A stretch of 37,272 nucleotides of DNA from Bacteroidaceae bacterium (GTDB lineage Bacteria > Bacteroidota > Bacteroidia > Bacteroidales > Bacteroidaceae). The stretch is taken from assembly GCA_017455585.1 (NCBI GenBank), contig JAFSZU010000069.1, positions 1-37,272 of the forward strand. Direction: 5' to 3'. The position numbers and the translations under genes are program-made. A model generated the notes under the pieces. That model made no database searches. It saw nothing but the letters and a program-made list of their open reading frames with translations, and was not told where the DNA came from. Shown in pieces: positions 7,646 to 11,599 of this stretch. Position 1 is the stretch's first letter; the number at the start of each line of letters is the position of its first letter.

Positions 7646-10600
7646 ATGACCGACGAGTCCCTCACCTCCCCCACCCCCTCCATCGACATCGCCGAGGAAG
7701 CAGCCCTGCAAATCGACGAGCGCCAACTCACACGCCAGGCTCTCTGGGAACGCAAGCTCCTGGACTTCAGCCTCCGCAACAACCTCTTGAACACGCGCCT
7801 GGGCAAGCGCGCCGTGCAGTTCATCTCCTTTGAGACGGCCCGCATGGAAGACCTCCTGCAGACAGGAGAAACCTACACCATCCAGACGTGGCCCGAGGAG
7901 CGCAAGAAGCTGGAGGCCGAGGACGGCATCTACCACTCCGCCACACAGGCCGCACCGCTCCAGCAGCAGTTCGAGACGGATATCAAAGCCCACAAGCTCT
8001 CGACCTATCTCTCTGCCGCAGAGCTGAAGCCCGTCCTCACCAACCTCTACCGCTCGGCACGCACGGCACTGGAAGAGAACGGTGCCAACGCCCTCTTCAT
8101 CGCCATCGGCATGTTGAAGTGGTTTGTCACAGACAAGAGCGAGCAGCCACGCTTCGCGCCCATCCTGCTGCTGCCGGTGAACCTGGTGAGGAACGGAGGC
8201 GGCTATGTCGTGAGGATGCGCGACGAGGAAACGATTCTGAATGTCACACTCATCGAGTTCCTGCGCCAGCAGTTCAAGCTCCTGGTGCCCACCTTCGACC
8301 CGCTGCCGCGCGACGAGAGCGGCGTGGATGTGTCCCTCATCTTCCAGTCCATCCGCAAGGCCATTGAACAGCACAAGGACTGGGAAGTGCTGGACGAGAG
8401 CGTGCTGGGCATCTTCTCTTTCAACAAGTTCGTGATGTGGAACGACATCCACAGCAATGCCGACAAACTCCAGCAGAGCCCCATCGTGCAGAGTCTGGTG
8501 GAACGCCGCCTCACGGTCAACGACGAGGAGAAGAGTGTGGATGTGCGCGAGTTCGACCTCACGGCCCGCCCGGCCGACGTGGCCACGCCCATCAGCGTGG
8601 ATTCCTCGCAGCTGGAAGCCGTCATCGAGAGCGGCAAGGGCAAGAGCTTCATCCTCTACGGTCCTCCGGGCACGGGCAAGTCGCAGACCATCACCAACAT
8701 GATCGCCAACGCCCTCTACCAGGGTCGCCGCGTGCTGTTCGTGGCAGAGAAGATGGCGGCGCTCAGTGTGGTGCAGAAGCGACTGGCCAAGATTGGCCTC
8801 GACCCGTTCTGTCTGGAACTGCACTCCAACAAGGTCACCAAGACGCACTTCCTACAGCAGTTGCAACAAGCGCTGGATGTCACCCACGGACACGTCAATG
8901 AGGACTTCGAGCAACGCAGCGAGGAACTCTACCGTCTGCGCCAGCAACTCAACGGCTACATGCAGGCCATTCACCAAGAGAGCGAGTATGGGGTGTCGCT
9001 GTATGACTGCATTGAGTCGTATTTACAGCAGACCCACCCCCTTACCCCTCCCTGTGAGGGAGGGGAGCGGTCAACTTTGACTGCTGAAGGGAAAGCTGCC
9101 TCTCAATTTCATTCTACTCCCCTCCCTCACAGGGAGGGGTTGGGGGTGGGTCTAACCAAAGCCGACCTCGATGCCCTCACCGACGAGCTGACACAGCTCG
9201 ATGCCGTCTTCCGCATCACGGGACATCCTCACAACCATCCTTTAACGGGCCTGGCCCCGCAGGATGACCGCCGCGAATATCTGGGCACACTGGAGACCCT
9301 GCTGCACCAGCTGCAAGCCACCGGCGAGCAGCCGGCCACGCTGCTACAGGACTGGCAGACTGTGCAACAGAAATGGTTCCTGCCCCGCTTCTTTGCCACG
9401 GGCACCTTCCTCAAACGCCTCCAGCGGCTCAACCCAGCTATCAAGAAGGAGGGCATCACCTCCTTCCTCCAACAGTTAAACACCCTCTTTACCCCCTCCT
9501 CCCCCTCCCCGGCCACCGTGCCCAGCGGTTTTCCGCCGGGCTCATCCCTCCCCCTCTCCACCTGGCTGGAGCACAAAGACGAGTGGCGCGTCTGGTATCA
9601 GTGGTCGTCTGCCCGCCAGAGCCTCATCGACCGTGGCTATCAGGACGTTGTGCAGTACATCGAGGCTGGCCACACGGGCGCCGAGACCGCCGAAGCCCTC
9701 GCGCGTACCTTATATAAAGAATGGGCACTGCTGATGATCGATGCCAACGACGAGCTGCGCCGCTTCAACGGCCTCGTCTTCGAGGACGTGATAGCCCGCT
9801 ACCGCCAGCTGACCGAGCATTTCCAGGAGCTCACCAAGAAAGAGCTCTACTGCCGTCTGGCCGCACGCATCCCCTCCCTCTCCATCGAGGCCGCCACGGG
9901 TTCCGAGGTCAATATCCTCAAGCGCAACATCGCCAACGGCGGGCGCGGCACCAGCATACGCCACATCATCGACCAGATTCCCAACCTGTTGCCCAAGCTA
10001 TGCCCCTGCATGTTGATGAGCCCCATCAGTGTGGCGCAGTTCATCGACCTGGACCAGCCCAAGTTCGACCTCGTCATCTTCGACGAAGCCTCGCAGATGC
10101 CCACCGCCGAGGCCGTGGGAGCCATCGGACGCGGACAGGCACTCATCGTCGTGGGCGACAACAAGCAGATGCCGCCCACCAGCTTCTTCGCCACCCAGCA
10201 GGTGGATGACGAGGATGCCGAGCTGGACGACATGGACAGCATCCTCGATGACTGCCAGGCCCTCTCGTTGGCAGACCACTACCTCGCCTTCCACTACCGC
10301 TCCAAGCACGAGAGCCTCATCGCCTTCTCCAACCAGGAGTATTACGACGGCCGCCTGTTCACCTTCCCCTCTGCCGACGACCGCGTGTCCAAGGTCTCGC
10401 TGGTCCATGTCGAGGGCACCTACGACAAGGGTGGCCGGCGCAGCAACCGCGCCGAGGCCGAGGCCGTGGTCACAGAGATCGTCCGCCGTCTGGCAGACGA
10501 CGAACTCAGCAAGCGCAGCATCGGCGTGGTGGCCTTCTCCATGGCCCAGCAGAACCTCATCGAAGATGTGCTCATGGAGGTCATCAGCGGCAAACCCGAG

Positions 10601-11599
10601 ATGGAGCGGCGCGCCTTCCAGACCGAGGAGCCCATCTTCATCAAGAACCTCGAGAACGTGCAGGGCGACGAGCGCGATGTCATCCTCTTCTCCGTGGGCT
10701 ATGGGCCGGACAAGAACGGCAATGTGAGCATGAACTTCGGTCCGCTCAACAACCGTGGCGGCGAACGACGCCTGAACGTGGCCGTGTCCCGTGCCCGCTA
10801 TGAGATGATGGTCTTCTCCACCCTGCGCCCCGAGCAGATTGACCTGAACCGCAGCAAGGCGCTGGGCGTGGAGGGGTTGCAGAAGTTCCTGAAGTATGCA
10901 GAGCAGGGGAAGCGCATCCCCCGCACTGCAAGCGCGGAGAATGCGCTTCCCCTGCCAGACGCTATCGCCTCCGCCCTCAACGCCCTCGGCTACGAGACCA
11001 CCACGGCGGTGGGACGCTCGCAGTTCAAGGTGGATGTGGCCGTGGTGGACCCCCGAGACCCCGAACGCTACTTCCTTGGCATCCTCATAGACAGTCCCGC
11101 CCGTGCCGCCACCAAGATTGCCCGCGACCGCGAGATCACGCAACCCTCTGTGCTACAGGGCCTCGGATGGAAGGTCATCCGCGTGTGGAGCGTGGATTGG
11201 ATGCAGAACCGCCAGCGCGTGCTCGATGCCATCGTCCAAGCCATAGAGGATCCCGCCAGCACACCCATTGCCAATACCGCGCCGCTGAACTTGACGCCTC
11301 CAGCCATTGTCACCGAGACGCCACGCAGGGTCACACCGCCGCCCGCCGCAATCAAGGGAAACCCAGACAGCAAGAAGGCCATCGAGGACATTGACCCAGC
11401 CGTCATCGATGCCACCATCCTGCGGGTCGTGCAGGAACAGGTAGCCCTGCCCACCGAGGACCTGCTGCGTGCCACCAACCGGTTGCTGGGCTATGCCCGC
11501 CGCTCACCCCGCTTCGACGCCATCGTGACACGCCGCATCGCCTCGCTCATCGTGGAGAAGAAGGTGCGCCGGGACGGCGACAAGATCATGCGTTTGTGA
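7646..11599 (+). CDS. DUF4011/DUF3320-type superfamily 1 helicase with Vsr/DUF559-like nuclease domain
   Basis: The 1317-residue protein has an N-terminal DUF4011-like region (WERKLLDFSLRNNLLN near residue 33). An SF1 helicase core follows: Walker A GPPGTGKS at 339-346, DEAS at 813-816, then VVGDNKQMPP, HYRSKHESLI, VQGDERDVI and LNVAVSRAR. A restriction-fold segment comes next (FKVDVAVVDP, then FLGILID and ARDREI with LGWKVIRVWS), and a DUF3320-like C-terminus (about 1250-1317). It probably unwinds and cuts DNA; proteins of this layout are often suspected of defence or repair roles, but the function is unproven. Three palindromic sequences lie in frame inside it (9030-9153, 9520-9541, 10903-10955) without breaking the frame. 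The ATG at 7646 follows the GH13 terminator; no promoter box was recognised. Confidence 0.82.
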   Translation: MTDESLTSPTPSIDIAEEAALQIDERQLTRQALWERKLLDFSLRNNLLNTRLGKRAVQFISFETARMEDLLQTGETYTIQTWPEERKKLEAEDGIYHSATQAAPLQQQFETDIKAHKLSTYLSAAELKPVLTNLYRSARTALEENGANALFIAIGMLKWFVTDKSEQPRFAPILLLPVNLVRNGGGYVVRMRDEETILNVTLIEFLRQQFKLLVPTFDPLPRDESGVDVSLIFQSIRKAIEQHKDWEVLDESVLGIFSFNKFVMWNDIHSNADKLQQSPIVQSLVERRLTVNDEEKSVDVREFDLTARPADVATPISVDSSQLEAVIESGKGKSFILYGPPGTGKSQTITNMIANALYQGRRVLFVAEKMAALSVVQKRLAKIGLDPFCLELHSNKVTKTHFLQQLQQALDVTHGHVNEDFEQRSEELYRLRQQLNGYMQAIHQESEYGVSLYDCIESYLQQTHPLTPPCEGGERSTLTAEGKAASQFHSTPLPHREGLGVGLTKADLDALTDELTQLDAVFRITGHPHNHPLTGLAPQDDRREYLGTLETLLHQLQATGEQPATLLQDWQTVQQKWFLPRFFATGTFLKRLQRLNPAIKKEGITSFLQQLNTLFTPSSPSPATVPSGFPPGSSLPLSTWLEHKDEWRVWYQWSSARQSLIDRGYQDVVQYIEAGHTGAETAEALARTLYKEWALLMIDANDELRRFNGLVFEDVIARYRQLTEHFQELTKKELYCRLAARIPSLSIEAATGSEVNILKRNIANGGRGTSIRHIIDQIPNLLPKLCPCMLMSPISVAQFIDLDQPKFDLVIFDEASQMPTAEAVGAIGRGQALIVVGDNKQMPPTSFFATQQVDDEDAELDDMDSILDDCQALSLADHYLAFHYRSKHESLIAFSNQEYYDGRLFTFPSADDRVSKVSLVHVEGTYDKGGRRSNRAEAEAVVTEIVRRLADDELSKRSIGVVAFSMAQQNLIEDVLMEVISGKPEMERRAFQTEEPIFIKNLENVQGDERDVILFSVGYGPDKNGNVSMNFGPLNNRGGERRLNVAVSRARYEMMVFSTLRPEQIDLNRSKALGVEGLQKFLKYAEQGKRIPRTASAENALPLPDAIASALNALGYETTTAVGRSQFKVDVAVVDPRDPERYFLGILIDSPARAATKIARDREITQPSVLQGLGWKVIRVWSVDWMQNRQRVLDAIVQAIEDPASTPIANTAPLNLTPPAIVTETPRRVTPPPAAIKGNPDSKKAIEDIDPAVIDATILRVVQEQVALPTEDLLRATNRLLGYARRSPRFDAIVTRRIASLIVEKKVRRDGDKIMRL
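9030..9153. mobile_element. 124-bp palindromic (MITE-like) element inside the helicase gene
   Basis: The element starts AGACCCACCCCC and ends GGGGGTGGGTCT. Its terminal inverted repeats run about 37 bp (9030-9067 and 9117-9153) with one small internal mismatch. Each arm contains its own 21-bp palindrome (cccctccct, 3 nt, agggagggg at 9045-9065 and 9119-9139). The 49-bp middle is unrelated to the arms. It adds about 41 residues (about 462-503, with HPLTPPCEGGE and TPLPHREGLGVGL) between two conserved parts of the helicase. It has no transposase gene. A related element occurs at 19578-19712. Confidence 0.82.
9520..9541. repeat. Small palindrome inside the helicase gene
   Basis: A hairpin with 9-nt arms and one mismatch (gcccagcgg, tttt, ccgccgggc) lies in a Pro/Ser-rich linker, flanked by C-rich runs. 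Its GTGCCCrGCGG start resembles the terminator at 7608-7632. It may be a second small inserted element. Confidence 0.45.
10903..10955. repeat. 53-bp palindromic insert inside the helicase gene
   Basis: A perfect 15-bp inverted repeat (gcaggggaagcgcat at 10903-10917, complement at 10941-10955) encloses 23 nt containing a ccgc/gcgg pair. It encodes GKRIPRTASAENALPLP (about residues 1086-1104) between the helicase core and the nuclease-like domain, where a variable linker is expected. Confidence 0.6.

Follow-up and report, generated by a model that had tools for sequence, protein, structure and literature searches.

A palindromic element within a helicase-nuclease gene

The window (the whole 37,272-nucleotide stretch of DNA analyzed, from a Bacteroidaceae bacterium) harbors a forward-strand gene at positions 7646-11599, encoding a protein of 1317 residues with DUF4011, SF1 helicase (AAA) and MTES_1575 nuclease domains. 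This DUF4011 helicase-nuclease lies near the anti-phage families ProA, Hhe, and PDC-S37, scoring 1422.7 bits against ProA, just below the curated cut-off of 1500, and well below the curated cut-off against Hhe. The gene is interrupted at positions 9030-9153 by a non-autonomous palindromic element of 124 bp, without strand assignment, which has the termini AGACCC...GGGTCT. It consists of a left arm of 38 bp on the forward strand (9030-9067), a spacer (9068-9116), and a right arm of 37 bp on the reverse strand (9117-9153), the latter being an inverted copy of the former with one mismatch and one indel. Each arm contains its own strand-neutral palindrome of 21 bp (9045-9065 and 9119-9139, respectively), so that the nested architecture described in the original prediction is real. 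The predicted folding of the 124 bp was better than in all 200 shuffles both as RNA (-95 kcal/mol, z -11) and as DNA (z -12), and the arm pattern, searched for in the window with at most three mismatches, was found twice against 0.09 expected, a count of two being reached in one of 100 shuffles.

The reading frame at 7646-11599 stays open through the element, which touches residues 462-503 (codons at 9029-9154, forward strand), and no stop codon is introduced, as had been proposed. The accompanying idea of a simple gain of about 41 residues did not hold, since the 78 aligned relatives of the helicase have a variable linker of some kind at this site; the nearest one (79% identical) has a stretch of 18 unrelated residues in this position, and the net difference read from the alignment is 25. 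The peptide translated from the element was absent from all 78 of these relatives, in agreement with the earlier view that it is unlike helicase sequence and not an ancestral segment shared with distant homologs.

Copies of the element across the genome

BLAST searches of the genome to which the window belongs (2.82 Mb, 80% complete) returned 133 pieces of the element at about 40 places, and a looser arm pattern gave 151 matches versus 74 for the reversed control; as 40 of 97 candidates were scored in the first look, further copies may exist. An arm profile run on the loci fetched from this genome detected 52 arm pairs, of which seven were left out (partial arms or locus edge) and three of the remaining 45 proved to be second readings of the same element, leaving 42 distinct paired elements. 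These span 51-206 bp, with a median of 125 bp for intragenic and 165 bp for intergenic copies. Twenty-four of the 42 are intragenic and all are read through in frame, whereas the other 18 are intergenic or extend into the end of a gene, and these counts support the proposed non-autonomous, frame-preserving palindrome comparable to the Rickettsia palindromic elements (RPE) for the copies examined. In 23 of the 24 intragenic copies, the frames indicated by codon usage in both flanks agree and are open, while the copy L062:50, at a locus edge, was assigned by its open frame only. Of the 18 non-intragenic copies, 13 start 0-43 bp past the end of the upstream frame and four contain this end (L041, L043, L054, and L067, where gene truncation is possible), and no upstream frame was seen for L062:1291. 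Of the seven loci submitted to Rfam, none gave a match.

An ORF scan of 23 ORFs besides the helicase revealed that Pfam domains flank or surround the inserts in ordinary genes, including those for FeoAB, the CCA enzyme, DnaX, ABC-F-like proteins, acyl-CoA synthetase, GH31, DprA, PspC, GH43 (two elements), an AcrB-type transporter, and TsaD, the last with the insert within the domain; L035 and L053 gave only matches below the cut-off, and L039, later classed as intergenic, gave none. In the TsaD gene (L056), which is usually essential, a 38-codon element sits just after an NHLQGH stretch that we take to be the likely metal-binding motif. In an AAA_12 helicase gene (L033:4937-5116, copy L033:4991), a TAG stop codon interrupts the frame 27 bp before the outermost arm; this gene looks broken at that codon, while the frame through the element stays open. 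In a hybrid histidine kinase gene (L029:2132-2235), the insert is extended by tandem arm units of 33 bp, each corresponding to 11 codons. Immediately outside the termini, A or C is found at 42 of 44 ends in 22 intragenic elements of this genome, at 27 of 32 ends in other genomes, and at 21 of 22 ends in a set of 11 elements labeled intergenic, a preference of either the target or the terminus.

Reading frame, phase, and encoded peptide

The usual peptide takes the form RPTP...GGGS; owing to its palindromic nature, the element gives a similar peptide in either orientation. Intragenic copies have spacers with a G+C content of 0.50, and each of these copies has one or more open frames, whereas the spacers of intergenic copies have a G+C content of 0.34 and lack any open frame in 12 of 18. 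The ends of the intragenic elements in this genome fall in a preferred codon phase in 17 of 24 cases on the left and 22 of 24 on the right, a preference that follows partly from the open frames themselves, given that just one sense frame is open in 26 of 45 elements. For G138, a genome of the same genus, 10 of 11 in-frame elements start in phase 0 (L159 being the exception), but phase 0 was seen at the right end of just four of 10 elements counted. The frame in use was the most hydrophilic open frame no more often than by chance in the genome of the window (4/9, 4.3 expected), and in 8/10 elements elsewhere (5.0 expected).

Related genomes and orthologous sites

Matches to the element were detected in 85 of 139 genomes of the same genus, which, from the names of the relatives, we guess to be UBA4372, a rumen genus, and in a sample of the family in 67 of 399 genomes and 10 of 30 genera. 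Twenty-one of 27 paired elements at loci of other genomes are in frame, two contain stops, and four have differing flank frames; 14 of the 27 come from G138, where 11 are in frame. A pattern search for short spacers succeeded in one of six genomes. Two near-complete genomes, G192 and G226, at first looked like carriers of the element that have no above-cut-off match to Y1 transposase, but they were dropped as an argument against RAYT mobilization, the pattern matches merely equaling the control in G192 (21 versus 21) and giving a weak excess in G226 (40 versus 31).

Orthologous loops in six genomes of the genus (86 rows at 16 sites, with some loci counted twice) are mostly occupied by other linkers. 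The loop of the relative is still element-like at the DNA level, with at least 15 bits, in six of the 86 rows (three for PspC, two for GH31, and one for the CCA enzyme), and scores 8-12 bits in four further rows. Beyond what had originally been noted, the sites are thus variable linkers and not clean empty sites. In TsaD, all five relatives have five residues more than the joined flanks, hence a target of about 15 bp was apparently lost, and the insertion there would seem, from these alignments, to have been accompanied by that loss; a pattern like that of TsaD was found in part of the rows for the CobL-like, the YfhO, and one GH43 site. In three genomes (L047:552-2573 in the genome of the window, L155, and L312), elements occupy one or two shared positions in a PspC-domain gene, and each copy resembles, by eye, the subfamily of its own genome, which may denote a hot spot or concerted change.

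DUF559 genes between inverted arms

All five DUF559 genes found in the genus lie between inward-facing arms. Four of these loci were recognized by the arm profile; the fifth gene has an internal deletion, and its arms, at 10.5 and 9.7 bits, are a weaker pair that forms a clear inverted repeat. Six pairs of facing arms 260-5000 bp apart were detected, and four were examined for their contents: two enclose a DUF559 gene (L086 and L333; Pfam E-values of 1e-35 and 1e-32, respectively), and two enclose different ordinary genes (L246 and L335), with L067 and L070 as the remainder. Twenty stretches of G138, which included L333 again, yielded two more intact DUF559 genes between arms and an internally deleted fourth. 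Since the arms were the reason for fetching L333, and the G138 sequence was to a large extent picked near arms, L086 is the only unbiased find. A DUF559 gene was not found in about 1.06 of the 2.82 Mb of the genome of the window, and the DUF559 gene of L099, a relative from outside the same-genus matches, has no arms. The DUF559 proteins match the solved endonuclease-like protein 3hrl (E-value 2.5e-19), and 16 aligned members have in common E, LW, Q, DF, E.DG..H, and D..R.

The short elements also resemble the DUF559-bearing ones at their inner ends, with 16 of 44 intragenic and seven of 36 intergenic ends being alike at p <= 0.01 against shuffles, L035 and L063 being left aside in this comparison. 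For the element at 9030-9153, the inner right end of the spacer is like the inner end of a DUF559 element of G138 (shuffle p 0.015), and the inner left end showed no likeness to it (shuffle p 0.85).

The association extends to other phyla. A tblastn search of plasmid records returned 35 records, of which 18 were fetched and 17 tested, one being a giant fused frame. Inverted palindromic arms scored above every shuffle at nine of the 17 plasmid DUF559 genes, and at 11 of 20 DUF559 loci when L333, L086, and L099 were added, compared with three of 143 neighboring genes in four of these regions that reached the arm threshold (Fisher p 1.3e-9). The three control genes that passed were a neighbor of a DUF559 element, an IS transposase beside another DUF559 element, and one unrelated gene, and the only one of 3000 random windows to score was itself the DUF559 element L086. 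Nine of the 20 DUF559 loci failed the first arm test; with other flank limits, taken from the conserved domain, L376 was clear, L364 and L360 were marginal, and the remaining six were negative. Five of the 20 loci, none of them passing, were tested with guessed ORF ends.

DUF559 genes between arms occur in four phyla. Gene-less arm pieces were detected in Pseudanabaena, in Shinella (Rhizobiaceae), and, by BLAST spans, in Rhizobium, and the arms in S. meliloti may be akin to RIME repeats. Deinococcus records vary in the presence and position of a DUF559 gene within the hpa and paa operons, with the gene at different operon junctions in four records; for example, D. psychrotolerans has the order paaD-DUF559-paaZ versus paaD-paaZ in Deinococcus sp. 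QL22. The C-termini of the DUF559 proteins of L360 (Synechocystis) and L376 (Sphingomonas) look arm-derived (LPSPVGEG and HPNPSPEGEG, respectively).

Proposed origin of the element and alternatives

The short elements are probably non-autonomous derivatives of a palindromic element that carries a DUF559 (Vsr-like nuclease) gene, and are tolerated in genes as linkers. The 124-bp insert would then be a MITE-like copy of a mobile palindromic element whose full-length form, of about 500-600 bp, would comprise two inward-facing, internally palindromic arms and one DUF559 endonuclease gene of the Vsr-like, PD-(D/E)XK/EDxHD type. Internal deletion of the gene would give rise to the elements of 51-206 bp, made up of the arms and a short spacer, which would spread in turn. 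As the putative mover, the DUF559 nuclease would recognize or cut the target or the hairpin arms, after which repair would insert a copy of the element and create no target-site duplication. Survival within a gene would require a net change that is a multiple of three, an open sense frame, and a tolerant loop; the read-through proteins would be made and would work, with the surviving insertions acting as linkers before they decay. An autonomous DUF559-nuclease partner, which the original prediction had not foreseen, likely exists in the genus, and for the element at 9030-9153 it may be the DUF559-bearing form described above.

Movement in trans by a RAYT (Y1 HUH) transposase, as for a REPIN, would account for an architecture resembling a REP doublet and for the absence of target-site duplications, and 62 of the 139 genomes of the genus contain Y1 matches with E <= 0.001 (53 of them above the family cut-off). 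We nevertheless consider it quite unlikely, given that the genome of the window, at 80% completeness, holds no Y1 match at E <= 0.001, that none of the 30 best Y1 places in the genus has an arm above 14 bits at distances of up to 1.5 kb, and that the arms share no consistent tag (among 98 arms, GTAG occurs in 25 and CGTC in 14 when any position within the leading 48 nt is counted). A classical MITE mobilized by an unseen DDE transposase would likewise display terminal inverted repeats, short gene-less copies, and a high copy number, but no target-site duplication reaching 3 bp was found around any of the 48 distinct elements tested (in sets of 22, 16, and 11, with one element in common), and 2-bp target matches numbered three versus 1.8 expected. 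With DUF559 genes in two of the six facing arm pairs and different ordinary genes in two, such an origin appears very improbable.

The DUF559 gene could also be a passenger, or a domesticated repair gene, among repeats that spread by replication slippage or gene conversion. The available part of one report describes the DUF559 protein VsrA of Caulobacter as a Vsr-like endonuclease with a hypothesized repair role (PMC12907096), the E. coli gene ycjD has no arms and fails the arm test, and the tandem 33-bp units of L029 suggest slippage. Against this stand the different operon junctions occupied by DUF559 in the four Deinococcus records, the recurrence of DUF559 between arms in four phyla, and the resemblance of the inner ends of the short elements to those of the DUF559 elements, so we regard the passenger explanation as unlikely.

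A more general form of the DUF559 explanation is put forward tentatively, at slightly less than even chances taken as a whole: DUF559 (Vsr-like) endonucleases may be the hallmark of a class of mobile palindromes widespread in bacteria, spanning at least Bacteroidota, Deinococcota, Cyanobacteriota, and Alphaproteobacteria, whose gene-less derivatives would be orphan REP/MITE-like repeats and, in rumen Bacteroidaceae, would still be making protein linkers in core genes.

Comparison with known systems and implications

As far as the accessible portions of the literature go, RPE and the Wolbachia palindromes are 100-150 bp long, preserve the frame in ORFs, occur in intergenic regions as well, and often occupy sites that vary between species (PMC3767692, PMC2229807, PMC4224334). 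Likened by these descriptions, the present elements agree with them in being palindromes of about 100-150 bp in many copies that keep the frame in genes, lie between genes too, and occupy variable sites, but they differ in the phylum, in a C/G-rich palindrome doublet, and in the candidate nuclease partner. The REP dimers with GTAG/CGTC tags, according to the sections available of PMC3733652, are mostly intergenic repeats of which some form doublets in ORFs, including repair genes, and the intergenic ones lie near an upstream stop codon. The present elements share the doublets within ORFs, including repair genes, and the position of intergenic copies near the upstream stop codon, but carry no consistent GTAG/CGTC tag, show no linked Y1 gene, and are intragenic in 24 of 42 cases. 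Similar to a REPtron (a RAYT gene flanked by REPs), one small DNA-processing gene lies between repeats that have many gene-less copies, although the gene here encodes a DUF559 Vsr-like nuclease and that of the REPtron a Y1 HUH transposase. One DUF559 gene has been assigned to the EDxHD family in the part of PMC9403480 at hand, a placement that connects the present genes with the EDxHD (Vsr-like) homing endonucleases; unlike in these, the gene here is located between palindromic arms with gene-less derivatives and not in an intron or intein.

Further background, likewise in partial form, is provided by reviews of RPE and MITEs (including PMC10969869) and by work on HUH endonucleases (PMC6006769) and Coxiella MITEs (PMC5896051). 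The accessible portions of the open-licence literature contain no link of DUF559 to palindromic repeats and no report of in-frame palindromes in Bacteroidales, and those of a paper on a REP survey tool (PMC12306157) hold nothing on RAYT, DUF559, or intragenic copies. In the same partial sources, the protein-coding palindromes described are mainly those of Rickettsia and Wolbachia, with no mover named for them. The present study adds a lineage from the gut whose genomes carry dozens of copies each, many of them in core genes, together with a concrete and testable candidate for the mover. If the DUF559 explanation is true, several orphan families of palindromic repeats would be tied to one small nuclease family, and the elements would represent a live route for the birth of new protein loops.
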